From Owenia fusiformis (taxonomy: Eukaryota > Annelida > Polychaeta > Sabellida > Oweniidae), in NCBI GenBank assembly GCA_903813345.2, contig CAIIXF020000012.1, positions 12,258,932 to 12,322,931 of the forward strand: a DNA stretch of 64,000 nucleotides, given 5' to 3'. Below, piece after piece: positions 24 through 62,888 of this stretch. The position numbers and the translations under genes are program-made. The notes beneath the pieces were generated by a model. That model searched no databases and was not told the DNA's origin. It saw only the letters and a list, made by a program, of their open reading frames with translations. The stretch's first letter is position 1; each line of letters starts with the position of its first letter.

Positions 24-9115
<9,092 letters not shown>

Positions 9116-39160: not shown

Positions 39161-42100
39161 ATGGAACATTTCTTGAACATATGGATTCTAATATCACTTC
39201 ATTTGATGGGCTTCACAGCAGGTGGTACATGTAGTTCTTTTAGTCCACGGTTTGATTCCGGAATATGAATAATCCGTAACACAATATAGTGCAGCAACAT
39301 TTGAACCAATATTCAAGAAGGTCCATACGTCGGGCTTTTTGGTCGAAATATGCCTCTCATTACAAGGGGTCAAAAACGTAAATATTTTTATTCGAATTTT
39401 TACACGTTTTGCATATCAAGAATATCACGTCATTTTACCACGTGCTTTTTTGATTGTTTATGTGAATAATTACATGACGTCACATCTCGATTATCAAATC
39501 ACGTCAAAGGCTGCTATGTTAATGAATAGAATTATAATTGGCCATTTGATAAATGACCCATTTTCATTTTCTGGGGGAAGCTTATTTTTTAAAGCCCTGG
39601 TATTGATCTTTTTTTATTACGTAAGTTCAATCAAGATCTTCCAATAATCATTTCGAGTAAATTCTGATATTAACAAAAAGGTTAAAGACGTTGAATATGC
39701 CCATTTTTACCATATTTTCGCTAAAACTATGACGTCACGCTACCACTCCCCATACAAAGTGATTTTAAAACACGTTTTTTCTGGGGGAAGCTTATTTTTT
39801 AACGTTGGGAATTCAATTTTTCGCTGTCTTACTCATAATAGTGTCATGCATAATATGCCATTTCGAGTAAATTCAAGTTCGTAATTATCACACACTTTAT
39901 CTACTTTTAAAGTTTTCCTATAGTAATTTCCCATTGACAATAATATGTGACGTCATATGTCAGAATTTATGTTAATGAGCAAATGACGTGATATTCTTGA
40001 TATGGTTAGACTCAAAACATTAATGAAAGCATATTTACAATAAATTAGGTTATCATTGTGTCAAATCTAATTCTAATTTCAATGTAATTTCTAGTGGTTA
40101 ATTAGTGTAATTTTATAGATGTGCTTATTTTGTTTATTTTTTCAAATATTGGTAAAGCAGATTCTGCAAAATTGTTTGAATTATTCTAAAAGAATCATAA
40201 TTTCAAATATATTATGTTTTCACTTTTTCAAAGTTTTATTTAAAGAATTTATACCTATCATCGCCAGAAGTCAAACAAGAAATAATTTTATAAAACATAA
40301 AACAATGACAAATACGTAAAATATATATCTATTTGAATGTTATAGAGGTATTAGAACGTTTATATATTAAGAGAGCATGTCTAATAGTTTATAAGAGATA
40401 TATGCAATCAAACTCCTTACATTTATCTTACGACGTTACTGCTGCATAACAAGATTTTCTGATGGTAATACATTCTTGTATTTCATACCTACTGAGGTTC
40501 TAGGTACATAACGAGCGGGAATATACACTGTATCTAGCCAAGGTCCGGGGCGGGATGGATACATGATGTATCCATCCCGGTCCCGCTCCTGAATTTTTTT
40601 TCACAATTTTTTCAAATTTTTTTTTGAATTTTTTTCAAATTTTTTTTCCCAAAATTTTTTTCCCAAAATTTTTTCCAAAATTTTTTCACATTTTATTTAA
40701 AAAAATGTTCACATTCTTTTCAATTTTTTCAAACTATGAGTTATATGAGTTTGAAAATCTCAGAAACTTAAAAAACACTTTATAACACCAAGAAAATGTG
40801 TATCTTAAAATATTTTTGATTTTTGGAACTTTATAAGGTATATGACGTACCTAGAACATCAGTAGGTATGAAATACATCTGTTATGTACGGTCGGTTTTG
40901 GATACAGGGTATTTCCCTTGGGATAAAACCTGTATCCAAACCCTCCCAGTACATAACCCTTATATAAATAACTTATACTGGTTATCAGCAGATTTTTTGT
41001 GAAAATCAAAACCATTTTTTCTCAAAGCTTCATGAATCCGACCAGATCTTAATTGGTGGTTGTTTTATAAACAACTTTGCAATATCTAATCGGGGGGAAA
41101 TAGTTTTAGCCGAAGTAACAGTAAGTCATTGAAGAACAATAGGCCTACGTCCCCCTTTATTGATAGTTGACCCCTGGCGGTGACAGTCCATATCTCAAAA
41201 CGTATTAAGACCCATTTTTTCGAAAAACTACAATAATTTCAGCATATTTCATTCTTTCTCATATAAAAACGATTCATTGATACCATTTACATCACCAATA
41301 TTGAAAAAATAATTCAAAATGTTGATGTGCTGATAATGTAATTTTGGCTATTTCTAAGAAAAGTAACATCAAATTTATAGTTGAAAAACCTAAAACATAC
41401 ACTCAAAATTTATTTCATATAGTTTTCTGTAGCAGTATGTACTCCAAATTGTAAAAAGAGGTACTTAGTTTTTACTAATATTTTTGACCCCTGCTAATGA
41501 CACGCACAATTCAGCCCAAACGCCCCAAGAATATTGAACGTCTGTAATAAAAAACTATACTTGACATGTATAATTATGTTAATATTAGGTCAAATGTATC
41601 GCTGCAATATATTGTGTTACCAGCTCCTTAATTAGGCGTCCTCGGAATTTCATACCATAGACTATTTCTTATTTGTCAGATTGCAATTACACGGACGCAA
41701 ACTAGACCTCGTGATACTGCGAGTTGCTTCATTGGTAATGTTGCTCATGCTCTGGTCAGTTTTTGTGCTGTACCAATCTTTATTGCTACTGAGATTGTTC
41801 CCATTGATCATCTTCGTAGCAATACAGAAAATATTGGCACGGAGTTGACAATCTCAGTAGCAATACAGAAAATACAGAATATTTCCTAGGGATCATTTCC
41901 TAAGTAAAATGTAGAACCGTTATAGAATGATTTGAAGTGCAATCTAGGATATACTGTATTGTGCTCTCTGTATTCTGTATTGACTTCGTGTCGTGCAAAT
42001 TCAGAATTTCAAATCATTCAATAACTTATATTTCTTATATTAAGTTGAATCTAACATTTTAGCGTTTAGAGAAATAAAAACGTGTCCTGGTGTCAAGGGA

Positions 42101-45100
42101 ATAACAGGCGGGTGCCAGGGTGGTGGAATTATCAAACTGGAATCGCTTATCCAAGGAGCAAATCAAAGAAATCCTGCGTCGTCATGTGGTCTAATTGGAG
42201 CAAACGACTGTAACGATGCTGAACATACGTTTGATTTCTACAGATTTGTAGGACTTGATGCTTCGAGGTTTGATGAAAGTGCAACAGTCCCTGACTTCGA
42301 GAGCACTTGCTATGACAAAAATCTTGTACAAAATAAATACATTCATCTTAAATATGAATGTATAGCAGGTAATATTTTTATGTTGAATGTGTATTGAATG
42401 GCCGTTATCTGTACGTTTTAAAGTGTATGTATAACCATGCAGTATACACATGTAATGTGCACAGGGTTTTCATAATGGGTGCCCGTCCCCCTCCATTTCA
42501 CAGCCTATCCTTGATCAGAATAGAATAGAATACTTGCTAAATTCTAGATATTTTCTGGTAAAATGTCATCTCTGACAATTTACCAAAATTAGACTTCCCC
42601 AATCAGTTCATTTTGCGAAAATCCCCCTTTCGTTTATTATTACAGTTAACAGTTTTCTTTCGTTCTTATTTTCAGCTGATGCTATAGCAAGACTCGGGGA
42701 AAATAAAACCATTTCTAGTTTTCATGAAATCCAAATATTAAATAAGGCATATCCACATATAACACTGAGCAACGTTGATAATCATATTTGTAATATATAT
42801 GGGCCTACTGACTCTACCACTATAGTCACTTTGATAAGATCTCGTGTTATCAATGGGGATAAAAACATAGTGATTCGAGATTCTAGGATGGAGAGATGTT
42901 CTGTCATCCCCTTGCAAACGTTTGAAAGCAATTTTGGGAAGGAGATCTACCGAGGGGTGTACCCCATAACACTTTACCTCAATTCATCACAAACTGCTTT
43001 ATCAATGATGTGGCTCTCAATAAAAGGTAAATATGTATATGGGCAGTTGGTCGACTGGACCGGACATTTAAAAAAGTAGTCCACTTGCTATAGTACAAGA
43101 TCTTCGTCGTCCAAAAGTATCATTTTGTTCGTTGTTCTGCAGAAATCGTGAATCTTTGTATGATGAAACAACATTAAATTGCAATAAATTTTAACTGCCC
43201 GAGCAAGTTGAAGCGTAGGTATTACAAGAGAAAATGAGGGTAGACCCCCTCTCCCAAATTATTTTGGGGGGGGGGGCTAAAAGAAAAAAATTTGTGGGCA
43301 CAAGTTATTACTCATAACTATGCCCAAGATGGTCAATTAATATGAAGACACCATTTATTAGGCATTTTGCAGGATATTTTGAATTAATTTGTGATTTTAA
43401 GCATTTTACTATCCTCAAATCAATTTTGAGTATATCTAATTTCAAGAATATTCCCTCATAACTTTTGTTGAAGCGCATTTATGGCTATGAAAAAAATTGT
43501 CAACCTTGCTCAAGTATCATTTGAGAGAGTCTGAAAGTATGACAGTGATGTGTCCTATTAATATGGAGAGAAAAAATCCCAACCACCCTACCCCTTCTTG
43601 AACAGTGGGGTAGGGGTCAATATGAAAAAAGAAATTTGTGAGTACATTATTTATGCAAATTATTTTTTATCCTGCTTAAGATGGTAAATTAGTATGAAGT
43701 TCACTATACATAAGACATTTTGCAGAATATTTTAAATTTATTTGTGATTTTAAGCGTTTTACTAACCCCCAATTCAATGTTGTGTTTACCTATTAACAAG
43801 AATATTTACTCATAGCTTATTTTGTATGACATTGATACCAATGGAAAAAAATTCAACAACATTGCTCATGTATCATTTTATAGATCCAGAAAGTATGGCA
43901 GTAATTTGTCAAATAATTGTGAAGAAAAATAATCACAAGAACCTCACCCCTTCTTCAACTGAGGGTAGGGGGTCATTTTGAAAAAATATTTTCAAAGTAC
44001 ATAATTTGTGCAAACTCCTTTTTATCATGCCTAGTATAGTAAATTGATTTAAAATTCGCTATTTATTAGCATTTTGCATGATATTTTGAATTGATTTATG
44101 ATTTTAAGCCTTTTACTATCCCCCAATTCAATGTTGAATATACCTAATTTCAAAAGTATTTTCTCATAACTGTTTTTCGAGTGCACCGACGTCTATGAAT
44201 AAATTCAAATATCGTTTGGACAAATCCTGAATGTATGACAGAGATGTGTCTAATCAATAACAAGAAAAAAAATTATAACAACCCCACCACTTCTTCAACA
44301 TAGTGGAAGGGGGGAAATATGAAAAAATATTTTGTGAGAATATAATTTGTGCTCACTCTTTTTTAACATGACTAAAATGGTTGATGAACATACAATTTAC
44401 TATTTATTAGACATTTTGCAGGTTATTTGGAACCTATTTGTGATTTTAAGCTTTTTTACTAATATCCCATCCCATCTTTAGTATTATCTTATTCCAAGAA
44501 ATTCCCTCATAGTTTTTTTTGTATTGTATTGATGCAAATGAAAGAATTCCACAACATTGCTAAATAGTGGGGGGAATTTAGTGGAAAATATTTCAAATGG
44601 TGATACAAGCAAATTTATTGGCTTAATCTGTTATTTAAACTATTTGGAAAAATTTTGTCCCTGTGATCGATCAAACTGAACACTATTTCAGGAAAAAATT
44701 CAAGATGGCTGCCGTAAATGTGTAATTCGGTACAAATGACACTCTAGATTCATATATAGAGATAAATTTGGTTTAAAATTATATTGATTCAGTAGTAAAG
44801 CATGTACATTATATCTAGAAATACAGTTTCATTCATTAATGAGCTGAATTTGGGCAAAATGACTTTATATAGGGATTCTACAAGGTTCTATTTTGGGAGC
44901 ACTCTTATTTTGCAACAACTTTAGTCATTAAACTTGTTTTCTTGAAAAATGTTGATATTTCACAAATGATTCAATCTAATATTTCAAGTTTACATAAAAA
45001 CACTGTCTTACAAGTACCAAGGAGACTTTGAAGGAGTCCCGCAAGGTTCTACTACACTCCATTATTATCACAATCTCTTGGAATTCGGTGGAAAATATTT

Positions 45101-48100
45101 AAAATTGTGATACATGCAAATTTATGGGCTAGTCAGTTATTTATGCAAATAAGAAAATTCCATCCCTCAAATCAGCCAAACCTAATACTATTTCAGTAAA
45201 AAATTTAAGGTTGTCGAAATATGTACATAATTCGGTAAAAATGACACCTTAGATTCATACATAGAGATAATATGGTTAAAAAATAGGTTCACTCAGTACT
45301 AAGACATGCAAATATATTTAGAAATACTATGATCTTCTTTGATTTGAATTTTGGCATAAAGAGTTTTATAGGAGTTCTTCAAGGTTCTATTTTGGCCCTC
45401 ACTGTTAGAACTTGAATTACTTTATAACATTCTCTAATACATTTAATACAAGTATCTAAGACATAATTCAAGAATATATTTCAAGTTTGAATGAGAATAT
45501 TGTCAACTAAGTATCAATGCAAACATTGAAGTAGTCTTCCAAGGTTCTACCTTAGTCTATTATTATCACAATCTCTTAATAGTATGATGAAATAAGGGCA
45601 GGTAGACAAAAACTTATCAATTATACAGCATTACATGTGGAATTGCACAATACTGTACATTTAAGTACAGATTTTTTACAAAAGCAAACTAAACATGTCT
45701 AGAGACTTGCTGGGTTTAGAGCCCCATGACGAGTTGTCTACAGTGGGGTCAACAGTAAAGGCCATGTGATGTTGCAGCTATAACACAGCTAATAGCAGAA
45801 ACAAAGCAACACAAAACCAACGTGCCAATTGTATGGCTTGATATAACTAAGGCAACAGGGTGCCACACAAATGAACTCAACAGCTTTGAAGCATTATAAT
45901 GTTCCTCAACATGTGATTGGCCTTGAGATAGAGCACCTTGAAGGTATTCAGTTGAGATTATTGACTGAAACAATCACCACTGGTTGGCAGCCTTTAGAGA
46001 AGGGAATCATGGCAGGCTGCATATTACTATTCATGGCAGCTATGAACATCCTTCTGAAGGGAGCCACAAGGAGTGCAATGAATTTAAAATGAGAAATGGT
46101 AACCCACATCCAGCATACTAGTATCACATTTTCATGGATTGATGACAAATGACACTAAAATAGCCATTCTGTGTTGTAGTTGTAAAACATGGTAAATACA
46201 TTGATAAATCTGCAAAACTCATTCAGTACTCAATGTTCAATTGTTTTGGCAACTTCAATTGTTTTGGCAATTTACACAAATTGATTTTGTTGTAAATTAG
46301 TGCATTTGTAAGTGTAAAGAATAAGAAGGGTGTCAAAAGTGAACCTTAAATGGCTCCTATGTAATAATGACTTATAAAAACTGATTTTGTCGTAAATTAG
46401 TGAATGTATATTCCTAATTATAGAACAGTAGTACCAATGATGTTAAATTCATTAAATTAAATAGAGTATCCATTGTACCAATTTGTGAGTATACAAAATA
46501 AGAAGGGTGTCAGGAATGAACCTTGCTTAACTCCTAATTATTTATTTTGACTTGAGTTCATAACAGTATTATGTGTTATGTGTGTATGTTGTATACTACA
46601 TCTCTAAACATAGAGATAAACATGTCTAATCATACTCTGATGAAATCATTGCAACCTCTCTATTTTATGATTACATTACATTACATAGTGATACATGTAC
46701 TACATAAACATATAATCATACACATATATAAAATATGTTGTGTTCTATATAGTTATAATAATCATATTATAATATCCAGTTACCTTTGAAGATGGTCTGA
46801 ATGTACTTATTTGTTTTCTGTTGATACACGTTTCTAACTTAATCCTACAGAATGATAAAATTGACCACAACTTCCTTTTCCAATAATATGGGGTAGGGCA
46901 CTTTCAACGCTTTTTAAAAAATACTTCCAATTTTTCAATAATTGAAATCTTCATATTGTATTATCAGGCAAAGTTATTAGATGTTTTTTAAATAATAATT
47001 AATGTTATTTGTCATTGCATTCTTTATTTGAACCTAGAAAATGAACATTATTTCCCATTTTACGCCAAATCGTCACACTTTGGGGCCATGGGAGAGGGCT
47101 AAAATTCAGTTTAAAAATTTGAAAAAAATTCACATGACTATTTTCATCTTAAAGAACAACATTTCACCATGAGAGCATGAATTTTCCAACAAAAAAAATA
47201 TTTTGCCCACCCAACATGTTATTTAAGTCATACTTTGTCGGCCATCTTGGATTTTGGGGGGAAGGAGTGAAATATTCCGTCGATCACAGGGACAGATTTT
47301 TTGAAAAAGGTTTTAAGAAGCAGAAAAACCAAAGTTTATACTTGTATCACCATCTGAAATATTCTGCCTAATATTGTGCAAACTCTCTTTTATCATGGTC
47401 CATTGATATTGACATTTGCTATTTATTAGATATTTTCAAGATATTAATATGTGATTTTAAGCCTTTTACTGCCCCCCCCCCCCCCCCACTCCAATTCAAT
47501 GTTGAATATATTTAGTTTCAGGAGTTTTCTCTCATTAGTTTTTATTGTAGTGCATCAAACCCAATGAAAAAATTCAACAACAGTGCTTAAATATCATTTG
47601 ATAGATCCATAAAGTATGACAGTGATATGTCAAATAGATATGGAGAGAAATATTTAAAATAACCCTACTCCTGCTTAAACAGAGGGTGGGGGTCAATGTG
47701 AAAAATATATTCAGCGGGTAAATTATTTGTGTAAATTCTTCTTTATCATGCCTAAGATGATCAATTTATATGAAGCTCATTGATTATAAGGCATTTTGCA
47801 GGATATTTAGAATGTATTTATGATATTAATCCTTTTGCCCCCCTCCCCCCCCCCCTCCAAATTCAATTTTGAGTTTATCTGATTTTCAAGTGTAATACTC
47901 TCATCACTTTTCCTGTAGTTCAGGGAAGCCAATGAAAAAGTTCTCAAATTAAATTACCAGGAATATCATTTACTAGATCCCAAAATTATGGCAGTAATGT
48001 AACTAAATAATATGGATAAAGATCACTCCATCCTGTTCAACCTCTTTTGGAGGGGATTTAATATTGATTCATACAATAGATATATTATCCTTATTATTGC

Positions 48101-51100
48101 ATCAACCATAAGATTTCTATTACTATTATTAAGTATGTCTATTAACATTTTGTTCATATAAAAACTGATCCTTGTAGGGGGAAGGAAGGAGAAATGTACA
48201 AAAAAACATGATTTTTGGCTCACACAGTGAGCATATTACCCTGCGTGCAGAGTCTAGTTAAACTAGACAAAGCTCTATTTTAAGAAGTGAAGTCAAACGA
48301 ATGCAAAGGGTATGAGCATATGGGATTTGACTAGTTACCATTTATAAACCATGATCTTCCAAGTTATTTGATGCACATAGATATGTTATCCTACGCGATG
48401 GCCAATCATGATATCAGTCTATTAGTATAGTAGGAACAAGGGGTTCCCATGCACCCATAAGGTGTGAATAAGTTACATACATTTTTGTAATCCATGGGGT
48501 GTCTATTTAATGAATTCATTTGTTAACATTGCCAACTAATGTCCCATAGTACTTTTATGGCGGCATTCAGTTACCATGGTTACGCATCTTTAGACATCTT
48601 ACCTTGGTATCTTAAATCATTTGTAGCTCTGTCATTATTTGGTCTATAGAAATGATATTGGTACCAAATTAAACCTCGTTGAATTTCCAATAAATTTCTG
48701 ATATTCAATTATGCAAATTATCTAATTTGCATAAATTATGACGTCATCAATCTATTTTTGGTTCAGAATTTCCAACTATAGCAACGTATCTATAAGAACT
48801 GAGGCCGTATGGCAAAATTTCTGAACGGTTTTGTCCTTTATTCTATTAGAAGAAGGTATAAGCAACATAAAAGTGAAAACAGATTCAAAATTGAATCAGT
48901 ATTACGAAAGTTATGTAACTTTCGAGGCAGCTATCGTGAATGTCATTATTTGACAATAATATACATACATCTTACCTTGGAGTCTTGAATCAATGTAGCT
49001 TCGCCATTATTTGGTCTATAGAGATGATATTGATATCTAATTAAACCTTATTAAATTTACTATATGGTTACAATATTCAAGTATGCAAATTAGCTAATTT
49101 GCATTAATTGTGACGTCATCAATCCATTTTTGGTTCAGAATATCGTAGTATAGCAACATATCTATTAGAACTGAGGCCGTATGACAGAATGTGTGCATAG
49201 TTTTGTCCCTTACTTGATGAGTGGAAGATATAAGCAACATTAAAGAGACAACAAATCTTCAAAATTGGATCAGAATTAACAAAATTATCCAGCTTTGGAG
49301 CGGGCAGCTACTGTGAACGTCATTGTTTGACAATTATAAAAAGAACATTAAATTAACAAAAAAAGTAACAACCATCGTTGTTTCAATCTTATTGAGTAAA
49401 AATGTACATGTATTGAACTGAACTAATAAGTATGTGGAAAGGTTACATGCATTTTGACTATCATTCACAGGGGTCAAAACGGTTATCTCGACCCTGTATA
49501 TTAAAGATCCAATCTTATAATTTACCATGCACTTTCAATGATTCATATAAATAGTATACATTTAGTCTGATTTTCATCATATTCTTCATATTCTTGATTC
49601 TTAAAGCATCTGAAGTATATAGCATGATTAGAAGTGAAGATGATTCATCATATGGTTTATGTAATATTTCTAACATTTCAGATGCTATGGTAACATCACT
49701 TGATAATGAGGTTTTTACATTTCACGTTCTTAATGAGTTAAAAGGAAGTTATTCTCCCTTTGCTTTAGAGATAAATAGTCGCATGAATTTGTTTAGAAAA
49801 ATTATAACTTAATTAATTTAACCCCCCCCCCTGACAGCCCCCACTTTTGAAGATTTTGGTGAAACCTGGCAAAATACATTAATTATTAGGTTCCAGAAGC
49901 CCCCAGAAGCTTTATGATGGCCCCAAGTGGCCCCAAGAATCTATACAGGGGCCCCAAGTAGCCCCAAGAAGCTATACTGTGCTCCCCAGAAGCTATATGT
50001 TGGCCCCCAGAAGCTGAATAGTGGCCCCCAGGAGCTATACGGTGGCTCCCAGAAGCTATACAGGAAACCCTGTGCCCCTTAGGAGCTATACGGTGGCGCC
50101 CAGAAGCTATACAGGGGCCCCCAGAAGCTATACAAGGGCCCCCAGAAACTATACTATGGTCTCCAGAAGCTATATGGTGGCCCCCAGTGGCCCTCAGAAG
50201 CTATATGATGGCCTCCAGAAGCTAATTAGTGGCCCCCAGGAGCTATACGGTGGCTCCCAGAAGCTATACAGGGGACCCCAGTGGCCCCAAGAAGCTAAAC
50301 GATGGCCCCCAGAAGCTATACAGGAGCCCCAAAAAGCTACATGATGGCCCCAAGAATCTATATGATGGCCCCCAATGGCTCCCAGAAGATGTGAAGGGCC
50401 CCCAGTAGCCCCTAGAAGCTATACGGTGGCCCCCAGTGGCCCTCATAGGCTATATGATGGCCCCCAGAAGCTAAATAGTGACCCTCAGGAGCTACATGGT
50501 GGTTCCCAGAAGCTACACAATGGCCCCCAGAATCTATATGGTGGCCCCCAATGGCTCCCAGAAGCTATAAAGGGTCCCCCAGTAGCCCCTAGAAGCTATA
50601 CGGTGGCCCTCAGTGGCCCCAAAGCTATATAGTAGCCCCCAGAAGCTATACAAGGGCCCACAGTGGCTCCCAGAAGCTATACGATGGCCCCCAGAAGCTA
50701 TGCAAGGGCCTGCAGGAACTGTACTGTAGCCCCCAGAAGCTATACAGGGGCCCCCAGTGGCTCCCAGAAGCTATAAGATGGCCCCCAGAAGCTATGCAAG
50801 GGCCCGCAGAAACTATACGGTAGCCCCCATAAGCTATACGATGGCCTCCAGAAGCTATACAGTGTCCCCCAATGGGCCACCATATAGCTTTGGGGGCCAC
50901 CGTATAGCTTCTAGGGGCTACTGGGGCCCTCTATAGCTTCTGGGAGCCATTGGGGGCCATCATATAGATTCTGGGGGCCATCGTGTAGCTTCTGGGTGCT
51001 GCTGTATAGCTTCAGGGGGCCATCGTATAGCTTCTTTGGGCCACTGGGGTTCCCTGTATAGCTTCTGGGTGCCATCATATAGCTCCTGGGGGCCACTAAT

Positions 51101-54100
51101 TAGCTTCTGGGGGCCATCATATAGCTTCTGAGGGCCACTGGGGGCCACCATATAGCTTCTGGAGACCACAGTATAGTTTCTGTGGGCCCTTGTATAGCTT
51201 CTGGGGGCCATCGTATACCTTCTGGGGGCCACTTGGGGCCCCTGTATAGATTCTTGGGGCCACTGGGGGGCCATCATATAGCTTCTAGGGGCTTCTGGAA
51301 CCTAATAATTAATGTATTTTGCCAGGTTTCACCAAAATCTTCAAATATGGGGGCTGTCAGGAGGGGGTTAAATTAAGTTATAATTTTTTTAAACAAATTC
51401 ATGTGACTATTTATCTCTAAAGCAAAGGGAGAATAACTTTCTTCTAACTCATTAAGAACGTGAAATGTAAAAACCTCATTATCAAGTGATGTTACCATAG
51501 CATCTGAAATGTTAGAAATATTACATAAACCATATGATGAATCATCATGAAAGTGCATGGTAAATTATAAGATTGGATCTTTAATATACAGGGTCGAGAT
51601 AACCGTTTTGACCCCTGTGAATGATAGTCAAAATACATGTAAGCTTTCCACATACTTATTAGTTCAGTTCAATACATGCACATTTTTACTCAATAAGATT
51701 GAAACAACTATGGTTGTTACTTTTTTTGTTAATTTAATATTCTTTTTATAATTGTCAAACAATGACGTTCACAGTAGCTGCCTCCAAAGCTGGATAATTT
51801 TGTTAATTCTGATCCAATTTTGAAGATTTGTTGTCTCTTTAATGTTGCTTATATCTTCCACTCATCAAATAAGGGACAAAACTATGCACACATTCTGTCA
51901 TACGGCCTCAGTTCTAATAGATATGTTGCTATACTACGATATTCTGAACCAAAAATGGATTGATGACGTCACAATTAATGCAAATTAGCTAATTTGCATA
52001 CTTGAATATTGTAACCATATAGTAAATTTAATAAGGTTTAATTAGATATCAATATCATCTCTATAGACCAAATAATGGCGAAGCTACATTGATTCAAGAC
52101 TCCAAGGTAAGATGTATGTATATTATTGTCAAATAATGACATTCACGATAGCTGCCTCGAAAGTTACATAACTTTCGTAATACTGATTCAATTTTGAATC
52201 TGTTTTCACTTTTATGTTGCTTATACCTTCTTCTAATAGAATAAAGGACAAAACCTTTCAGAAATTTTGCCATACGGCCTCAGTTCTAATAGATACGTTG
52301 CTATAGTTGGAAATTCTGAACCAAAAACAGATTGATGACGTCATAATTTATGCAAATTAGATAATTTGCATAATTGAATATCAGAAATTTATTGAAAATT
52401 TAACGAGGTTGAATTTGGTACCAATATCATTTCTATAGACCAAATAATGACAGCTACAAATGATTTAAGATACCAAGGTAAGATGTCTAAAGATGCGTAA
52501 CCATGGTAACTGAATGCCGCCATAAAAGTACTATGGGACATTAGTTGGCAATGTTAACAAATGAATTCATTAAATAGACACCCTAGGGATTACAAAAATG
52601 TATGTGACTTATTCACACCTTATGGGTGCATGGGAACCCCTTGTTCCTACTATACTATATCTTATGGTGGATTTAAACAATTGATTCATCCTTCTGGCAA
52701 TTAAATAATATGGTAAAAGTATTTTTATGGTAATTATGGTAGACTATGAAAACACAACAACCTCAAAATGCCATGAAATGAGAGGAACAGTACATTTATG
52801 GCAAATTGCAAAGGACGAATCTCGGTTTGGAGAACAGCCTCCTGGGCTAAAATTTTTTTCATGAAAAATATAGAAATATTACCCAAATTAAACTATGAAT
52901 ATTCAAAAGAGGACAATTAAATCTACAAGATGTAAAAATAACAAATTGGTCTGAAGCAGGAATAATGCTCAAATAGACCGATTCAATAAAATACAAGTCT
53001 CGATTTGGGGAAAGACGTTCATCAGTGTACTGCGCTAATATTTTTTCGCGAAAAATCTAGAAATATTACCCAAATTAAATTATGACTATTCAAAAGAAGA
53101 CATTCAAATCTATATTATGTAAAAAAATCAAATTTGTCCGAGGGCAGGGGTAATGCTCATTTAGATTGATGAACTTCGTTCTCTAAACCGAGAATCGTCC
53201 TTTCCAGGGGACTAGCATGCAGTTTGCTGTTTATTTTTCATATTATAATAGATATTAGTTCTTTCAAATTTGCTAGAATTGATAAACTCGCTAACTCGAA
53301 TCAATAAAATCAAAGTTTCTTTAAGTTTCTTTAAAATATCTTCTCAGTTGTACCCCATCTCTGTCTCTGAGGGAAACATTAGTTAACCAGTTATGATGAA
53401 GTTTTTTCAAGACAGTCAGGGAGAGTTTGGTAGCCCCCCACCCTGACGTCACGCCCCCCCCCCCTGCCGCCACCCCCCCCCCCCCCCACACACACACACA
53501 CACAGTGGAGAGGCAAAATCTTTTTTCTCCATCATTAACATTTTTTATAATTTGAAATTAAAGATTCATAGAAAAACTTTATACCTGATTTTTCTTCACT
53601 AAATATCAAAATATCTTAGAATACTGATATAAAATCCTCGAAGTCAGTGTAAGCAAAATTTGAAAATGTGTACATGAAAGGGTTAAAATATCAATTTTAC
53701 AAGGGAACAATGAAAAATAAACATCTACAATGATTATTAGATAATAGTAGCAGTTATTTCATGAAAATCTGGGAAAAAGTTTGCTCAGAATATTTACTTT
53801 TAGTTTTACCCCGCAGGGGTGGGGGTAAAACATAAATTTTGAGACAAAAAGTGACTGAGAAACTTGCTAGGGTGGATTTTTCATTTGAAATCAAAACATA
53901 CATGAAATATTAATGGCTTAATTTCTGCAGTGATTCTAAAAAAAGATGAAGATCTTGGACCCCCCCCCCCCCCCATCTTGCTTCTTAGCTGAGTGTGAAA
54001 ATAATTTTCTCATTCATTAATGATTTTTATGATTTGAAATTCATTAAACTTATAGAGTGATATAAGAGCTCTCTTATTGAATTTTTTCATTAATAAATAT

Positions 54101-56895
54101 GAAAAGATCTTAGAATTATGACAAAATATCTTCAAAATCCAATTTACCAACATTTAGCATCACTGGACATTAAGTGATTAAAATATTGATTTTGCAAGGA
54201 AATATTAATAAAAAAAACATTGAAAACAATTTTTCATTATATCTGCTGATTGTATAAACTTATTTAATGGTGGCATATGAAGAACTGTCCACAATTTTTT
54301 TTCCTTTGCCCCCCTGCTCCCCCCTGGGGGTGGGGGTAAAACATAATTTTATGGGACGAAAAGTGACCCATGAACTTGCTCGGGTGCATTTTTTCATTTG
54401 AAACAACCAATATATTCATAAAGTCACAATGGTTTAATTTCTGCAGAGATTCGAACAAAAAATAACGAAGAGCCTAGACTACTAGTAGTAAGTGAACATT
54501 TAAAAAAGAATAGCAGGACTTACCGTGTAGATATATTTTCTTATCCATTCACATAAACTTTGTTTTGTAGAATAATACAGGTAATTAGACGTGGCCATCA
54601 TATATAATGCAATGTACTATCCATCTGATAATTCTTCTCTTAAAATGTTTCGCTAAACAAAGTTCAATTTCTAGATGCCAATGGTGGAAGAATCTCTGCT
54701 GAGTGTTATAATGTTGGGCACATTACACCTCCTCGTCTACCAGAAGTCTGTTTACCACCTGTTACCACACCATCACCAATAGTGGCGTCCACATCATTAT
54801 CACCATCCCAAAACCTATCAGCTAATACATTTACATATACATCCGGAGATACAACCGCAGTGTATGCAACTACTGAAGTTGGTATTACAAGCGCACAGGT
54901 ACAGTATGAGTGTTTTGTTGATGTAGTCCTCTCGTCAGTTTTCAAGGACGTTTTTTAATTAGTTATGAAGTCAGACTGAGTTACATTATTCCCATTAACA
55001 TTATGAACTGCGTATTCACTGGTGATCCACTCGATTACGCTGGTTACCAAAACGGTTCGTTTTGGTAACAAAATGTCGGAACGTCGAAGGTACGATTTTT
55101 CTCTTCCTTATGTCACACGTTGTTGGCAGAATTCCCACGACATTTTTAACATAAACGTGTATCAGTATCATATGTTTAAGAAAATGTACAAATGTGCGAA
55201 CAAATAGTTCAGAAGGCAACAGAATCGTCGATTTAATTCTTCACTTAAGTTACATAAACGGTTTTTCGAAAAACAGTTAAGATCTGCACTTTTAACCCAA
55301 ATCGTTTATGTAACTTAAGTGAGGAATTAAATCGACGATTCTGTTGTCTTCTGAGCTATTTTTTCGCAAACATGAACTTTTTCTAAAACATATGATACTG
55401 ATACCCGTTTTTGAGAAAAAACGTCGTGGGGATTCTGCCTACAACGCGTGAAATAAGGAAAAAAGAAAAATCGTACCTTCGACGTTCCGACATTTTGTTA
55501 CCAAAACGAACCGTGGATCACCAGTGGTATTTTTAGCCAATAATTTCAATTGTAAAGATATACGTTACCTTGTCTTAACAGTATTATTGTATTTCTAAAT
55601 TATTGAAAGAAAATGTAAACAATTTCAAATGAAGCTTTTCTTCAATAACAAAAATATATGCTGTAGGAATCAGAAACCTACGGGAATGGAGCCCAGAAAG
55701 AGGTGTCAGGGATGAAAACACAATACGACATTACAACAGAAAGTATGACAAATGTAACTGATCGGGATACTCTAAGCGAGGAGCAATTCAATTTAGAGGA
55801 AGGTATCTCATTAATTGTCCCTCACTTCAAGACCAGTCCTTCTAGATTCCTATATGGACACTCACTTTTTTAAGAACGTATTTTTAAATGCTTCAATTTC
55901 TGATTTTCGGAGACTCTGCCTTATAAGCTTATCATGATTGACTGTGTCATCTTCTAGTTTCAACTCACTCAGACTTCATATTTCATTTTCAGGGGTTATC
56001 ATCGGAATTGTAGTGGCAGTATTCGTCGTTGCCCTCGTTATACTAATTCTCACAATATTTTTTGTGAGGAGACGATTGGGGTGAGTGAATAATAAATATC
56101 ATGGATTTTAGGTCGATTTAAAGATGGCAGCAACTAATGTAGTCCATGTTATTATTTAAAGAGAAGCTGTATAGACAGGTTGACAGAACTGATAATATTT
56201 GATACCATTTATGAACCTTCTTTTTATCATCCTTAGTCTATTAGTAGATGAAACGCCATGGTGAATGGTATGCGTCAATTTAGACTTTATTGGGATCACC
56301 TTATGTCATTTGCCACGCTTAATAATGTTTGAAACTGGCTACGCCACTCCAGTGTACACTTTGATTTTATTTCAGTAAAAGTCGGGAGGGCCCAAATGAC
56401 AATGATGCTGAGCTCGAAGCAACGTATGCTAACATACATGAGGGACACCAACACACAATTACTACAGCAATTGATACCACACAAGAATCTGGTGACCTAA
56501 ATAGGGCCGGACGGATAAATTACGAATATGTAAATCCCAAATGCGACAATCGGAAATGTGCAAATACAGCATACGATCATCAAGAATACGCAAATACAAC
56601 ATTTTATCATCGGGAATGTGCAGATAAAGCTGTCCAAGATCAAGAATATGCAAACACAGCATATGATCATGAAGAATATACAAATATAAAATACGACAAA
56701 CCAGAATATGCAAATATCGCATGCGAAAAACACACGTATGTGGATACAGAAGAGCCATATGCCAGACTCGCACCGGAAGGAATGCATGTGTCTAATGATT
56801 ATGAAAGACTTGCAACACAGCCTGTTAAACATGATGAACAAAGCTCAGAACCCAAAGCTAAATATGAAAATGTGAATATAAATACTAGGCAGTGA
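39161..56895 (+). CDS. Receptor A: SUEL-like ectodomain, TM, YxN/ITAM-like tail
   Basis: Exons 39161-39221, 42063-42368, 42676-43026, 54675-54898, 55667-55802, 55993-56080, 56376-56895 join in phase to 561 residues. Residues 1-20 are a signal peptide (NIWILISLHLMGFTA). Domain 1 (21-122) has TCPG...GGCQGGGIIKLESLIQGAN and ends FESTCYDKNLV...KYIHLKYEC, resembling a divergent SUEL/rhamnose-binding lectin fold. Domain 2 (123-239) is unrecognised, possibly CUB-like. A Thr/Ser/Pro stalk (240-359) and a membrane helix (VIIGIVVAVFVVALVILILT) follow. The 173-residue tail has 15 tyrosines: seven YxN (Grb2-type SH2 sites) and Y517ARL-x10-Y531ERL, which fits YxxL-x(6-12)-YxxL. Likely a phagocytic or immune receptor (inference). 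Intron 3 is 11.6 kb. Confidence 0.85.
39400..40015. mobile_element. Foldback-type element in receptor A intron 1
   Basis: Left end catatcaagaatatcacgtc, right end gacgtgatattcttgatatg, inverted. Inside, tctgggggaagcttattttt occurs twice about 213 bp apart (39579, 39780), and tgacgtca-type palindromes recur. No coding capacity. Confidence 0.6.
40478..40876. mobile_element. Inverted-repeat element with T-rich core
   Basis: gtatttcatacctactgagg at the left is mirrored by atcagtaggtatgaaatac at the right. A nested hairpin gggatggatacatgatgtat/ccatccc lies near 40550, and 40587-40740 is runs of T with aaattt interruptions. Confidence 0.6.
40877..42062. other. Rest of receptor A intron 1
   Basis: AT-rich. 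Short inverted repeats occur near 41780-41865 (ttgctactgagattgt / acaatctcagtagcaa). No exon, RNA gene or transposon end could be supported. Confidence 0.3.
43230..44560. repeat. Degenerate long-period (~350 bp) tandem repeat
   Basis: The block attttgcaggatattttgaa ... tgtgattttaagc ... ttttact begins at about 43358, 43709, 44067 and 44408 (steps of 351, 358 and 341 bp). Each unit also holds a C-rich accccttcttgaac segment and aagtatgacagtgatgtgtc. Two further units are at about 47380-48060. Confidence 0.7.
44560..45560. repeat. Two ~490-bp degenerate direct repeats
   Basis: tggtgatacaagcaaattta / tgtgatacatgcaaattta, aattcggtacaaatgacac / aattcggtaaaaatgacac and aaggttctattttggga / aaggttctattttggcc recur in the same order in the two halves. 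Confidence 0.6.
45757..46165 (+). pseudogene. Non-LTR reverse-transcriptase fragment
   Basis: One frame gives AITQLIAETKQHKTNVPIVW then LDITKATGC (the RT region A with its Asp). After a frame shift come NVPQHVIGLEIEHLEG, TTGWQPLEKGIMAGC and a decayed ...FSWIDD (the YxDD box region). Stops and frameshifts make it a relic. It lies in receptor A intron 3. Confidence 0.6.
46166..48422. repeat. Intronic sequence with further ~350-bp repeat units
   Basis: 46166-47370 has only short duplicated phrases (ataagaagggtgtca twice, ttgattttgt(t/c)gtaaatta twice). 47380-48060 carries two more units of the 43230-44560 repeat and two poly-C runs (about 47471-47488 and 47839-47856). 48230-48420 shares a short dispersed phrase (aacgaatgcaaagggg) with 19275. 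Confidence 0.5.
48423..52657. repeat. 4.2-kb inverted repeat with a minisatellite core
   Basis: The arms are about 48423-50635 and 50878-52657. The outer ends are tagtatagtaggaacaaggg and its reverse complement at 52640-52657. About 1.4 kb of unique arm sequence on each side matches with few differences. The inner parts of both arms are a G/C-rich minisatellite of ccccagaagctatac(g/a) + gtggccc units (about 49880-50870), inverted on the right (about 50880-51290). A short plus-oriented spacer, 50636-50877, separates them. No transposase was seen. It resembles foldback elements with internally repetitive termini, or an inverted segmental duplication. Confidence 0.85.
52808..53206. mobile_element. 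MITE with duplicated internal block
   Basis: Termini aaaggacgaatctcggtttg and taaaccgagaatcgtccttt are inverted. Inside, agaaatattacccaaattaa and the following attcaaaagagacatt(c/a)aaatct block occur twice, about 190 bp apart. Confidence 0.65.
53400..54480. repeat. Two ~500-bp degenerate direct repeats with poly-C and CA tracts
   Basis: Units at about 53450-53960 and 53960-54470 share cattaatgatttttatgattt-like, atcttagaat, gggtgggggtaaaacataa, gtgac(t/c)(g/c)a(g/t)(a/g)aacttgct and ttaatttctgcag blocks. Poly-C runs (about 53449-53463, 53471-53486, 53960-53974) and a (CA)n run (about 53486-53504) lie at unit boundaries. Confidence 0.6.
55017..55526. mobile_element. 510-bp foldback element in receptor A intron 4
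   Basis: Arms of about 240 bp, termini CACTGGTGATCCAC / GTGGATCACCAGTG, flanked by GTATT at 55012-55016 and 55527-55531. The left arm has a ~22-bp insertion after the first 14 bases. The 5-bp duplication and CAC...GTG ends resemble the 849-bp foldback pair at 27982 and 29391. Confidence 0.8.
56758..56811 (+). other. ITAM-like motif in receptor A tail
   Basis: Encodes YARL-x10-YERL preceded by DTEEP. The spacing and the upstream acidic residues match the ITAM consensus (D/E-x(0-2)-YxxL-x(6-12)-YxxL). The same motif at the same place is in receptor B (62817-62870). Confidence 0.75.
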
Positions 56896-56904
56896 ACCAT
56901 AGGG

Positions 56905-57120
56905 AAAAGTGGTGACAACGAGGGAAAAGTGGTGACAACGAGGGAAAAGTGGTGACAACGAGGGAAAAGTGATGACAACGAGGGAAAAGTGGTGACAACG
57001 AGGGAAAAGTGGTGACAATGAGGGAAAAGTGGTGACAACGAGGGAAAAGTGGTGACAACGAGGGAAAGTGGCGACAACGAAGGAAAAGTGGCGACAACGA
57101 AGGAAAAGTGGCGACAACGA
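56905..57120 (+). repeat. 20-bp minisatellite in receptor A 3' UTR
   Basis: About 11 tandem units of agggaaaagtggtgacaacg starting 10 bp after the receptor A stop (56893-56895), the last two or three with gcgacaacga. AATAAA at 57477-57482 would place the array inside the 3' UTR. Confidence 0.9.
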
Positions 57121-57155
57121 CTAGAACGTGTAGAGTAATAGAAGCAATCTTTTCA

Positions 57156-57288
57156 AAATGCCATTCGAACCCTTATTTTATCTGAACAAAATGCCATACA
57201 TACATCATCAGAGGCAAAAGAAGATTTAGGATCAAGTACTGATGAAGATGACAAAATTAATAACAGTGAATCGGGGTTTCATATTTGA
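57156..57288 (+). pseudogene. Coding-like fragment in receptor A 3' UTR
   Basis: Open frame of 43 residues ending at TGA, reading NAIRTLILSEQNAIH then EAKEDLGSSTDEDDKINNSE. The acidic, Ser-rich end looks protein-like. No start codon and no recognised family. Perhaps the former C-terminus of another gene or an alternative last exon. Confidence 0.25.
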
Positions 57289-57289
57289 A

Positions 57290-58508: not shown

Positions 58509-58544
58509 ACTTCCTGGTTTATAGAACTATTTTTGTTAAATGCG
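58509..58544 (+). promoter_or_regulatory. Conserved promoter block of receptor B with ETS-like site
   Basis: acttcctggtttatagaact, matching receptor A at 39023-39060 while flanking sequence has diverged. It begins 90 bp upstream of the ATG. Confidence 0.45.
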
Positions 58545-58598
58545 AGGTTGTCCAAAATGCATACTTACCAAAGGAAACGGACAGGACGCATTTTAGAA

Positions 58599-61500
58599 AT
58601 GGGAGAACGTTTGAACAAATGGATTCTGGTTTCAGTTTTTGTGGTAGATTGTATGTCAGGTACACGTACTTATTTTTCCTATATTTCCTATTTTTCCTGA
58701 TTGATTATTTACCAGTTTACAATTGGCTAATTTGATTTGATAAAATAAAACACATCTTATGATCATGTCGGAACTATAATGAACTGGGGTTTAGCCTAAA
58801 AATAGGCTGGGTATACTAAGCTTGTATTCGGCTGTCGGTTACCGGATTAACCTACTGTTTTATGACCTCATTTAAATATGAATGGAATGGCTAAAGAGAC
58901 AGAAAAGTGGCAATCCCTAAGATGTAATATCGTGACTTCTAATTCTAGTCATGTCATCCCAATAAATAGTTGGCTCGCAACAGCGTATTTGCTTTTCTTA
59001 CGGACCATATACAATGGGCGATCTAGAAGTTTTGATAAAAATGCTCTTACTTAAAAGTTCATCGTTTTCCACAATATTTTTAGAGTAAATGGGTCATTAA
59101 TTTCCTAGTAAGCTTAGTTATTAGAGATATAGCGTTTTTTATCAGAACCTCAGGATTCCTATATATATGGTATCTTTCTCATAATTAGGATTATAGGATT
59201 CCTTTAACATTTTAGCGTCTGGAGAAGTAAAAACGTGTCCTGGTGCCAAGGGAATAACAGGCGGGTGCCCGGATGGTGGAATTATCAAACTGGAATCGCT
59301 TATCCAAGGAGCAAATAATAGAACCTCTGAAATACAATGTGGTCTAATTGGAGCAGACGACTGTAAAGATACGATACATGCGTTTGAATTCTACAAATTT
59401 CTTGGACTTAGTCCAACAAAGTTTGATGAGAGTGCCGTAGTTCCCGACTTTGAGAGTAGTTGCTATGACCCGGAACTTGTAAGAAATAAATACATCCAAC
59501 TGGAATACGAATGTAGAACAGGTAAAATTTCAATCTGAAAACGTAAATGTTAATATAGGTATTTAATACACGTAACGTTTAATATTAACTTATTTGTGCA
59601 TTTTTGAACCCTTTATAGTACTTGAATTTGATTTCGCTTCTTTGAAAGAAGTAGATTCTGATCCTGATGGTAGATCTTGCTTTCAAGAGTATCATCTTCA
59701 TCTGTTGAGATTTCATTGTTGCTTTCATTATCTGTGGTCTGGCCATTATCTGGGACCATAAAGGTCTGTTGTTGGATTCTTTGTGCTTGACTTCTCTGGG
59801 CATCCTTCTTCAAAGGACTTCATTTATTCTTAAATTCATGGAAAGAAGTGAAATACCCTTGGACCAAGGATGTTCACTGTGGACCCCTTGTCTGATTTGT
59901 AGTGAATCTTCTTATGATCTTGTTATCTCTGATGATTAATTCCTTTCACTATTACTCACTCTTCTCCTCAATTCCTGTCTTAGCTCAAAGGCAGCCTTCC
60001 TCTCATATTTAGAGATCTGCTTGAATGAAGATTGTTCCCCACTGAACACTCTGAGTTTAGGGGCAGCTCTGAGGATTTCATTTCTATTGTACTGGTCTAA
60101 GGTGATTTTCTCTCAGTGTGGTGTAATCTGGACAGGGTTACTCAAAACATAGCCATCTGTCATGCAGATTGTGCATTTGTTTGTTAAAAGGAATTATTTG
60201 TAGTTGCGAAACTCATCATTCAAATCATTCATATTAAAAGTTAACAATTAATTTACATTCGTTTATTCTTATTTTCAGTTGATACTGTTGCGAGACTCGG
60301 AGAGAATAAAACCATTTCTAATGTTCGTGAAATCCAGTTATTGAATAAAGCATACCCAAATGTAACACTTGGAAAAACTGATGATTATCTTTGTGAAATA
60401 GATGGCTCTGTTAATTCTACAGTTATAGTGACTTTAATAAGATCACGTGTCATACTAAATGGGGATAAAAACATGTTGATTCGAGATTCTGAGATGGAGA
60501 GATGTTCTGTCATCCCCTTGCAAACGTTTGAAAGCAATTTTGGGAAGGAGATCTACCGAGGGGTGTACCCTATAACACTTTACTTCAATTCATCACAACC
60601 TGCTGTATCAATGATGTGGCTCTCAATAAAAGGTAACAAGGCATTAACGTGCAAATGTCGCAACAAGCCATTTGTTACAGACGCCGACCGCCGAAAGCCG
60701 AACACCGACCACAACACACCGAACACCATCAACAAAAAAGTTGGAGACGATAACAATATGTCAGTACTTCTGATGGGGACATGAAAACTATAATTATTAA
60801 TTTGAAGCATGGTGCTTTTAGTCAAAAAATGGTCACTTGTAGCCGTCCAGCAAAAAGTATAATGAAACATTTTATTTGTATGATGCATCGCTTTTAAAAT
60901 GTCCCATAACCATCGTGATAACGGGCCATTTATAAGTAGTATAGTGTGTCCGATACAACCCAAGTTCGCGCGGCGGGACTGTTAATTATTGTATGATATT
61001 TTAGTATGTATATTGTTAACTACAGTGTGAGACTTTAATAAATATTTTACTAACTAACTAACCTATACTTGTCTTACATGACACAATTTAATTTATAGAT
61101 GCTCGTGGTTTGAGTTTCTCGGCAAATTGTTATAACGTTGCAGATACTACACGTCCTCAGCTACCTGAAATATGTCCGTCACCTATTAGCACACCGGCAC
61201 CAACGTCAAGCTCCTTTGTATTAGATTATAAAGGTAACCTATTAAGTATGATCCCTTACCTCTAGATCACTTCCTCTAGCAGAAAAAATAGATTTACAAA
61301 ATGCCCTGGCTATTTTTGAATGTTATATACATCACACAAAATATGATTAAGTGGAAATATGTACGAAATCAACCCTCAAAATATGAAAATGAGTACGATA
61401 TAAATGTAATGTATATGAATTTAAGGCATGGAACCTATCACACGTGTACATGTATGGCAGTTACATAACTATATCGGCCCAAAACATATGATATTGAATA

Positions 61501-62888
61501 TGAATAAACCAACTATTATTATTATATCACTGTCATATTCCTCACTCTCTGATTGGTCCATGTCCTACACGTGACTGAAAAGTAGCACGCGATATTCAAC
61601 GGAAGTCACGTGACTTCCATTGAATATCAAATGATGTTCACCAGTCCGACTTGGTCCAGTGCAGTTTTAATTTTATATATATCCCCGGGAGTACATTGTT
61701 ATGATTAATTAGACATCAATAGTTTGTTATTCCATTAATGTGAGTAGGGAATATAACAGTGAATAATAATACAAATATTTAATTCTCGGTGAATACCTGT
61801 TACACTTTCACGAGATGATATTCCACTATCACTTGTGAAAGATGCACAGGTATTCACCTCAATAGAATTAAATATTTGTATATTGTCTTGTATATTATAT
61901 ATTCCATAATGGCTTCATTCTTGTATTTCCAGAACTATTCACCGGACCTGCTCTATTGGGAGTATTCGGCCTTGCTCTCATTTTACTGACTCTTACAAAT
62001 GTTTTAGTAAGGCGACAATGGAGGTGAGTAAATATAAGTAAATCAAAAATAAAATACTTCGAGCATGAGCCAGTTGATTAGGTAGAGAACACAGCGAGTG
62101 ACAGATTTTATCTAACACTTGATAGATTTCCTCTTATCCTTACTTTTAATTGTACGAAGAATCACAAATGAGCAAATTGAAATGTATCTGTTAGGTACCA
62201 GGATTATTTCCAAATATTTATTGAACTACCTGTAAATAGGCATGAACGTTGCCAAGCTTGCGGCATCAACTGCCCCTGCAAGATTGTAAAGTTATTAGAC
62301 GTACGCGTTTGCCCAATAAAACTTCGGAAATGAAGTCCAAATGTACTATTAGACCTCCTTTATCTTTTATTTGCCTCGTTTATTAATATTTGCCTCGCCT
62401 ATTTACATTTGCCTCGTCTATTTACATTTGCCTCACTTATTTACATTTGATTCGTCTATTTACATTTGCCTCGTCACTGATACGTTTGCATGTTTAATTC
62501 TAGACACGTTCTAGAGGTTCGATATGAAAACGATGTTGAGCTCGAAGTAAAGTATGCTCACATGCACGAGGAACGCCTAAACATACTAACTACACCAACA
62601 GATACCTGTCGTGAATCTGGCTCTTCAAAAACCAAAGCCACCGGATATGCTAATGCAGCTAATCTTCATCAGGAATATGAAGATACATTAGTACATCATG
62701 AAGAATATACAGATACAGAAGTACGTCATCAAGAACGTTACAATGAAAAACATGGCAAACAAGAATATGCAAACACAGAATGCGACAGACACGAATATGC
62801 CAATACAGAGGAGGTATATACCAGACTCGAACCGGAGGGAATGCTTACTCCTAATGAATATGAAACACTTGCAACGCAGCATGTTTAA
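58599..62888 (+). CDS. Receptor B: SUEL-like ectodomain, TM, YxN/ITAM-like tail
   Basis: Exons 58599-58659, 59216-59521, 60279-60632, 61099-61233, 61933-62023, 62504-62888 join in phase to 443 residues. Same plan as receptor A: signal peptide (KWILVSVFVVDCMS), domain 1 (21-122; GGCPDGGIIKLESLIQGAN ... FESSCYDPELV ... KYIQLEYEC), domain 2 (123-240; RCSVIPLQTFESNFGKEIY), stalk (241-285), helix (LLGVFGLALILLTLTNVLV) and tail (316-443). The stalk is much shorter: receptor A's exon 55667-55802 has no counterpart. The tail has ten tyrosines, four as YxN, and ends Y421TRL-x10-Y435ETL, the same ITAM-like pair as A. GCPDGGIIKLES resembles the CPEGKVIxIxSA start of SUEL lectins. Probably binds glycans and signals through tyrosine phosphorylation (inference). 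Confidence 0.87.
59600..60180 (-). pseudogene. Retroelement-like coding relic in receptor B intron 2
   Basis: On the minus strand: a frame with NRNEILRAAPKLRVFSGEQ and KYERKAAFELRQELRRR (about 60110-59960), then, after stops, KKDAQRSQAQRIQQQTF ... NEISTDEDDTLESKIY (59813-59613). The first part resembles the C-terminal part of LINE ORF1 proteins. Identification is tentative. Confidence 0.35.
60636..60786. mobile_element. GTCACCACC-type MITE, reversed
   Basis: Reverse-orientation relative of 11313-11444 (ggcattaacgtgcaaatgtc ... gacgataacaatatgtcag ... ggggacat). It begins only about 4 bases after the receptor B exon-3 donor at 60633. Confidence 0.5.
61770..61880. mobile_element. Palindromic MITE in receptor B intron 4
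   Basis: tacaaatatttaattctcgg and tagaattaaatatttgta are inverted, as are ggtgaatacctgt / acaggtattcacc and ctttcac / gtgaaag. A separate palindrome around gaagtcacgtgacttcc lies at about 61600-61617. Confidence 0.65.
62370..62482 (+). repeat. ~20-bp tandem repeat before receptor B last exon
   Basis: Five to six units of tttgcctcgtctatttaca, ending about 20 bp before the acceptor of the tail exon (62503/62504). Confidence 0.75.
62817..62870 (+). other. ITAM-like motif in receptor B tail
   Basis: YTRL-x10-YETL preceded by NTEEV, aligned with receptor A's motif at 56758-56811. Around it EPEGM and LATQ are conserved. Confidence 0.75.

Follow-up and report, generated by a model that had tools for sequence, protein, structure and literature searches.

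Does a tandem pair of annelid genes encode lectin-type receptors that signal through phosphotyrosine? The question is raised by a 64,000-nucleotide stretch of the 498-Mb Owenia fusiformis genome, C12:12258932-12322931 (contig CAIIXF020000012.1), hereafter called the window. Three PF16915 (annelid erythrocruorin linker) hits above the cut-off in this genome are in keeping with an annelid. An original prediction, made from the letters alone, had placed two paralogues here, each with a signal peptide, a SUEL-like domain, a second conserved domain, a single membrane helix and a tyrosine-rich tail ending in an immunoreceptor tyrosine-based activation motif (ITAM). The placement at 39161-62888 was right, and the two splice models are clean. 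Genes A (39161-56895) and B (58599-62888) are head-to-tail neighbours on the plus strand, and both models, predicted from genomic sequence, have AG/GT splice sites and a frame that is open through to the stop codon. Gene A comprises seven exons and 561 amino acids and gene B six exons and 443 amino acids; the products are 58% identical, intron phases are equal at the junctions common to both, and exon 5 is an extra exon of A only. The two genes are paralogous and belong to a set of predicted, related single-pass receptors that numbers at least nine. The analysis described below indicates that the A/B locus belongs to a real SUEL-type receptor family with fast-changing tails, and that the ITAM-like motif is, at the level of the predicted proteins, real in A and B and not common to their relatives.

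A receptor family of at least nine members

A genome search with the B ectodomain returned 20 matches at E<=1, which we attribute to nine gene loci. Beside A and B, these comprise a single locus on C4, five loci on C7 (4874810-4905347; C7-1 to C7-5) and a single one on C11. The C7-4 query also gave 20 matches, which consisted of the nine family loci and two SUEL-CUB relatives. A transmembrane exon was found at 9/9 loci, as was a long tail frame with 10-23 tyrosines (C7-3 being counted as its twin C7-2), which bears out the receptor architecture first proposed for A and B. The intron between the transmembrane and tail exons is in phase 2 in A and B. A phase-2 GT donor was listed at five of the six other loci tested (C7-1, C7-2, C7-5, C4 and C11), and the several candidate AG sites at each of the five include a compatible one; the likely donor at C7-4, judged by eye, is GTTAGT. 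C7-2 and C7-3 share a mismatch-free stretch of 1,746 bp (C7:4880243-4881988 and a copy 3,519 bp downstream; L017, L018), which was either duplicated very recently or is an artefact of the assembly. C7-3, being a copy of C7-2, was excluded from the alignments and the tree. The ends of the paralogue domain and tail rows were set by eye. In the ectodomain tree of eight rows, a split with support of 100/99 sets A, B and C4 apart from C11 and the C7 genes. C11 sits on a long branch, a kind of join that the tree program flags as possibly false, and the tree fixes no branching order inside A/B/C4 or inside C7. Used as a genome query, the C7-4 tail gave nine matches, all within the family, and the A tail gave A, B and four matches elsewhere (E 0.011-0.78). 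A Pfam scan of two paralogue tails returned no family above the cut-off.

Homology of the ectodomain

No Pfam family rose above the cut-off in A or B, in their separate domains, in domain 1 of C11 or in domain 2 of C7-2; A drew 12 weak hits and B not one. PF02140, the SUEL family, gave no match at E<=10 for A, B, their domain 1 or domain 1 of C11. The genome holds 18 PF02140 matches, 14 of them above the cut-off and none (0/18) inside the window, and a phmmer search of the PDB with B at E<=10 produced 0 matches. Profile-profile comparison with hhalign scored domain 1 at 95.9% against four SUEL domains of the same genome and at 92.8% against a seven-row SUEL set including five PDB-derived rows, both comparisons being made without L037. 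Another seven-row set gave 97.7% (E 1.4e-12 over 88 columns; 0/150 column shuffles as good, reversed profile 0.6%), a score that may be flattered by the inclusion of L037, which was found through a family query. The four-row set was chosen by eye from 13 loci, seven of which gave a readable frame. The C7-4 query also matched C11:21764688 (E 1e-3) and C11:22093434 (E 0.029) directly, and the domains at these sites score 2.1e-6 and 1.2e-6 against PF02140, slightly below the curated cut-off. Since Pfam misses domain 1 and profile-profile comparison finds SUEL, domain 1 is supported as a divergent SUEL homologue, as the original prediction had it; carbohydrate binding is not part of this claim. 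Set beside the SUEL or L-rhamnose-binding lectin domains of PF02140 (CSL3, latrophilin), domain 1 of A and B is homologous along its length, keeps the KYxxLxYxC end and keeps the SUEL cysteine frame in part. Unlike them, it lies below Pfam detection, and in the joint alignment ANYGR is replaced by IQGAN or IQGSN (most rows), IQGAY or IVGAN; DPC is lost and KY is kept. ANYGR and DPC...KYL are the sugar-contact motifs of SUEL domains. Of the proposed lectin identity, the SUEL homology stands, in a domain that has not kept the ANYGR sugar motif.

Domain 2 may be a CUB domain that has decayed. Pfam CUB (PF00431) gave no match for domain 2 of A, B or C7-2, and the profile matches to CUB were weak: 4.2% in one weak test, 1.2% over the full length with 3/150 shuffles as good, and 10.3% for the N-terminal half with 1/400 shuffles as good. 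In L036 and L037, both on C11, the exon after the SUEL exon is a true CUB (PF00431 at 3.5e-11 and 2.1e-13 in L036 and 7.1e-9 in L037), and domain 2 occupies the gene position where these SUEL-CUB relatives carry it. L060 and L061, also on C11, have SUEL domains above the cut-off (33.8 and 41.3 bits); after these come an exon of CUB or CUB-like type and a transmembrane exon, by eye in the family's order. L036, L060 and L061 also share with the family, partly by eye, a short strand-like piece and linker after the CUB position, which by eye resembles A exon 4 at the matching place. CUB domains usually have C-x-W; by eye, C-x-C is present in 5/5 CUB or CUB-like exons of the C11 relatives and in domain 2 of C7-1, C7-2, C7-4, C7-5 and C11, and not in that of A, B and C4. 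Unlike A and B, the four C11 genes showed, on inspection by eye of 8-9.5 kb each, neither a YxN array nor the tail module, and L036 further differs by two SUEL-CUB units and a hydrophobic stretch at its end. L036, L037, L060 and L061, two of which have a transmembrane exon, resemble less derived kin of the receptor family.

Tyrosine motifs in the tails

YxN is the Grb2-type SH2 site. The cytoplasmic part of A carries seven such sites (Y406, 440, 460, 480, 490, 500 and 552) and that of B four (Y323, 364, 404 and 414). The ITAM consensus is present as PYARL-x10-YERL in A (Y517/Y531) and VYTRL-x10-YETL in B (Y421/Y435), each preceded by acidic residues and both in identical alignment columns, so that the motif counts and the shared YxxL-x10-YxxL placement first reported are correct. 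The A tail contains a second consensus match, YTNI-x6-YANI. Because A and B are paralogous, the shared ITAM placement does not represent two independent events. At least one YxxL/I-x6-12-YxxL/I arose in 3.3% (A) and 2.2% (B) of shuffled tails (5,000 composition shuffles each), and the consensus occurs in five of the eight distinct tails (A, B, C7-1, C7-2 and C7-5), which are related and therefore non-independent rows. Observed over expected YxN numbers were 7/1.39 in A, 4/0.63 in B, 18/3.65 in C7-1 and 9/2.0 in C7-2, and the tyrosine content of these tails was 8.7, 7.9, 4.9 and 7.3%, respectively; an ordinary protein has approximately 3%. Much of the YxN excess sits in tandem repeats, namely 30-bp coding units in A (56555-56716) and B (62666-62735) and 36- and 81-bp units in C7-1, where 14 copies of the 81-bp unit (L017:5339-6470) encode a YVND-type site.

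Six of the eight distinct tails have in common a module of the form Y-x-x-T/A...R-L-x-P-[DE]-G-[MI]...Y-x-x-[LIV]. All of these module-bearing tails (6/6) have Y at the second ITAM position, but only A and B (2/6) have it at the first; R, K, S and M stand at the first position in C4, C7-4, C7-5 and C11. The original prediction had made conservation of the ITAM tyrosines in orthologues its own test. Applied to the paralogues, this test goes partly against the prediction, and the missing first tyrosine in four module-bearing paralogues weakens the ITAM reading. The tails of C7-1, C7-2 and C7-3 are without the module and have YxN arrays; C7-1 and C7-2 contain a different ITAM-consensus match, which adjoins the membrane.

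Divergence and origin of the tails

Between A and B, the ratio of nonsynonymous (dN) to synonymous (dS) substitution rates is 0.62 in domain 1, 0.45 in domain 2, approximately 0.77 in the tail and 0.73 over the 33 codons of the module. Identity is low in the signal peptide and the tail, with 47% of residues common to the aligned tails. From this comparison, the predicted A and B tails are seen to evolve faster than both ectodomain domains, partly by tandem-repeat growth. The dS of domain 2 is 0.035 in alignment columns 195-240 and 0.58 in the first half, and in the first 39 codons of domain 1 dN (0.169) exceeds dS (0.099), a small sample. The local dS drops in domains 1 and 2 point to gene conversion between A and B, which is the likely origin of the similarity in the second half of exon 3 (42676-43026 in A, 60279-60632 in B).

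By eye, the tails of C4, C7-4, C7-5 and C11 show NDIYN-type sites and a conserved juxtamembrane stretch, and those of C4, C7-4 and C7-5 also W-G-D-Q-x-Y-S-D units. As NDIYN-type tails are found on both sides of the split in the ectodomain tree, this tail type is probably the ancestral one, and A/B and C7-1/2/3 therefore probably gained their YxN arrays independently, via tandem repeats; the reconstruction draws on the paralogues of one genome. A more far-reaching scenario, which we put forward tentatively and consider doubtful as a whole, is that, in at least two parallel events, tandem repeats grew round the same ancestral tyrosine of one original SUEL-type tail and made it a multivalent array for SH2 docking, the repeat units being of 10 residues in A/B and 12 residues in the C7 genes, with a further 27-residue unit in C7-1. 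ITAM-type pairs would then have arisen de novo at two places, in the C-terminal module of A/B and next to the membrane in C7-1/2/3.

A Syk/ZAP-70-type gene

An SH2 family search of the genome listed 48 matches, and 20 short regions, covering part of these matches, were examined. One of them, the N-SH2 exon at C1:53027444, is nearest to ZAP-70 (1.6e-13) and then to SYK (1.7e-12). The rest of the N-SH2 domain and pieces of a C-SH2 domain (ZAP-70, 4.1e-8) lie further downstream, and no ankyrin exon was seen by eye between the two SH2 domains. As both SH2 domains are nearest to ZAP-70/SYK, a tandem-SH2 gene of the Syk/ZAP-70 type is present in the genome, and it is a candidate for a Syk-type partner of the kind originally envisaged.

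Proposed function and alternatives

We give about even credence to a model in which the predicted tail serves SH2 proteins as a multivalent docking platform, in A and B with the option of an ITAM. Judging from tail anatomy and the precedent of Draper/MEGF10, a surface ligand (glycan or protein) would cluster the receptor and a Src-family kinase would phosphorylate its tail, which would then dock SH2 proteins through the YxN sites and the module YVDT...RLxPEGM...Yxx[IL]. Only in A and B would the extra module tyrosine create an ITAM-like pair, which could engage the Syk/ZAP-70-type protein of the genome and lead to actin or MAPK responses, as in Draper/MEGF10. The likeliest setting would be the recognition of microbes or altered self by haemocytes or epithelia, and an immune function of the A/B family is inferred.

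In addition to the unconserved first tyrosine, several results weigh against this docking model. Neither A nor B matches any Pfam family above the cut-off, and AlphaFold models of domains 1 and 2, built from two window rows only, reached a mean pLDDT (predicted local distance difference test) of 33.3 and 35.5. The single A/B pair, with the tail and module ratios given above, gives no hint that the module or the ITAM is under strong purifying selection. No YxN excess is present in C4, C7-4, C7-5 and C11 (1, 1, 1 and 0 sites), and their tyrosine content is only 3.4-4.0%; the term tyrosine-rich, which together with the multi-YxN description holds for A and B, consequently fits only part of the family, four of the eight distinct tails being near ordinary content. 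The kinase domain of the C1:53027444 gene was not seen within the 9 kb read, and an ITAM match occurs by shuffling in 1.7-5.9% of cases over the eight distinct tails.

This shuffling rate also favours a plainer adaptor platform, in which many single phosphotyrosine sites would work without any ITAM function, the YxN sites recruiting Grb2-type adaptors and the remaining ones other SH2 proteins, and the A/B pair would be a by-product of tyrosine-rich repeats. The absence of the first ITAM tyrosine from four of six module tails, the YxN-bearing tandem repeats of A, B and C7-1, and the YxN arrays of C7-1/2/3 that do without the module point in the same direction. However, the A/B pair keeps its spacing, acidic lead and both YxxL despite the low tail identity, C7-1 and C7-2 carry another ITAM-consensus pair near the membrane, and the Syk/ZAP-70-type tandem-SH2 gene does exist, which leaves the adaptor platform an appreciable possibility that falls short of even. 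It seems unlikely that the genes encode gamete, self/non-self or adhesion receptors, a fast-evolving SUEL-type family that would signal on cell-cell contact; the low identity of A and B in signal peptide and tail, the excess of dN over dS at the start of domain 1 (again a small sample), the signs of gene conversion and the near-identical tandem copies on C7 would all suit such receptors, yet immune receptors can evolve likewise. SUEL lectins are, moreover, known from sea urchin eggs (PMC8878817; this and the other papers cited are represented by excerpts). A last alternative concerns the models themselves, which are drawn from genomic sequence: if they were partial or pseudogenic, the A exons on either side of the 11.6-kb intron 3, within which an inverted repeat and a minisatellite-like stretch are seen by eye, would not form one transcript. 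Splice sites, phases that match B, intact frames and paralogues with the same exon order make this very improbable.

Gene models and other features of the window

The coordinates of the predicted features are listed in Table 1. The signal peptides of A and B were judged by eye from a hydrophobic start, and both remain putative, with a further reservation for B, whose exon 1 is weak and has no 19-residue hydropathy peak >1.5.

Table 1. Predicted exons and tail modules of genes A and B (positions in the window)
Feature	Position	Strand	Basis
A exon 1, putative signal peptide (by eye)	39161..39221	+	GT donor and phase agree with B
A exon 2, domain 1 (divergent SUEL homologue)	42063..42368	+	splice model, profile comparison
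A exon 3, domain 2 (candidate degenerate CUB)	42676..43026	+	splice model, profile comparison
A exon 4, last ectodomain strand and Thr/Ser/Pro-rich linker	54675..54898	+	
A exon 5, stalk; no counterpart in B model	55667..55802	+	splice model, A/B alignment
A exon 6, transmembrane helix, hydropathy 3.65	55993..56080	+	
A exon 7, cytoplasmic tail, 15 Tyr, 7 YxN	56376..56895	+	
A tail module YVDT...RLAPEGM...YERL, ITAM-like Y517 and Y531	56737..56811	+	
B exon 1, putative signal peptide (weak)	58599..58659	+	
B exon 2, domain 1 (divergent SUEL homologue)	59216..59521	+	
B exon 3, domain 2; second half near-identical to A	60279..60632	+	
B exon 4, last ectodomain strand and linker	61099..61233	+	
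B exon 5, transmembrane helix, hydropathy 2.44	61933..62023	+	
B exon 6, cytoplasmic tail, 10 Tyr, 4 YxN	62504..62888	+	
B tail module YANT...RLEPEGM...YETL, ITAM-like Y421 and Y435	62796..62870	+	

Intron 3 of A is repeat-bearing. By eye, an inverted repeat at 48803-52279, with near-identical translations on opposite strands, encloses a minisatellite-like stretch at approximately 49886-51301. A 20-bp minisatellite (56901-57120; 11.1 copies, 96% match) begins a few bases past the A stop codon. Elsewhere in the window, open frames at 32412-36686 resemble by eye a thrombospondin-1-like piece, long threonine-rich mucin-like repeats and an LDL-receptor-A-like piece, and an open frame at 4940-5332 has a protein-kinase-like start (by eye).

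Relation to known receptors

SUEL-type domains are mostly found in secreted lectins or adhesion G-protein-coupled receptors. Among open-licence papers, as far as partial listings reach, no description of a SUEL receptor with an ITAM or multi-YxN tail was found, which does not imply its absence from print. The engulfment receptors Draper, MEGF10 and CED-1 are single-pass proteins like A and B. The ITAM of Draper and MEGF10 is read by Src- and Syk-family kinases, with Src42a phosphorylating Draper and Shark binding to it (PMC8092387). Draper has a NIM/EGF-like ectodomain and an NPxY motif, and the excerpt describes no SUEL-like domain (PMC8092387); unlike the Draper/MEGF10 ectodomain, A and B have no Pfam match to an EGF domain. 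The oyster proteins CgCLec-TM1 and CgCLec-HTM are transmembrane C-type lectins with a hemITAM, and CgCLec-TM1 is Syk-associated (PMC13027682); they differ from A and B by the C-type lectin fold and by a hemITAM in place of a two-tyrosine pair or YxN array. Invertebrate ITAM receptors comparable to A and B are also represented by oyster CgIgIT2, an immunoglobulin superfamily receptor distinguished by its five Ig domains (PMC11999971), and by a haemocyte glycoprotein with two ITAMs from the ascidian Halocynthia (PMC5465252). With these receptors in print, the novelty originally claimed for an invertebrate lectin-ITAM receptor was too strong. In bdelloid rotifers, SUEL domains are part of large multidomain membrane-associated proteins, whose tails the excerpt does not describe, and according to the same study it is elusive what SUEL lectins do in lophotrochozoans (PMC8878817); three SUEL lectins were counted in Aplysia (PMC9334734).

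A multigene family that combines a SUEL domain with a phosphotyrosine tail would extend the known repertoire of recognition receptors in invertebrates by a lectin fold. As its paralogues show an apparent ancestral tail beside two derived kinds, the family offers a natural series for how ITAM and YxN sites arise. Should the tentative scenario of parallel tail growth prove true, a single gene family would have invented signalling tails of the immune-receptor kind repeatedly and independently.

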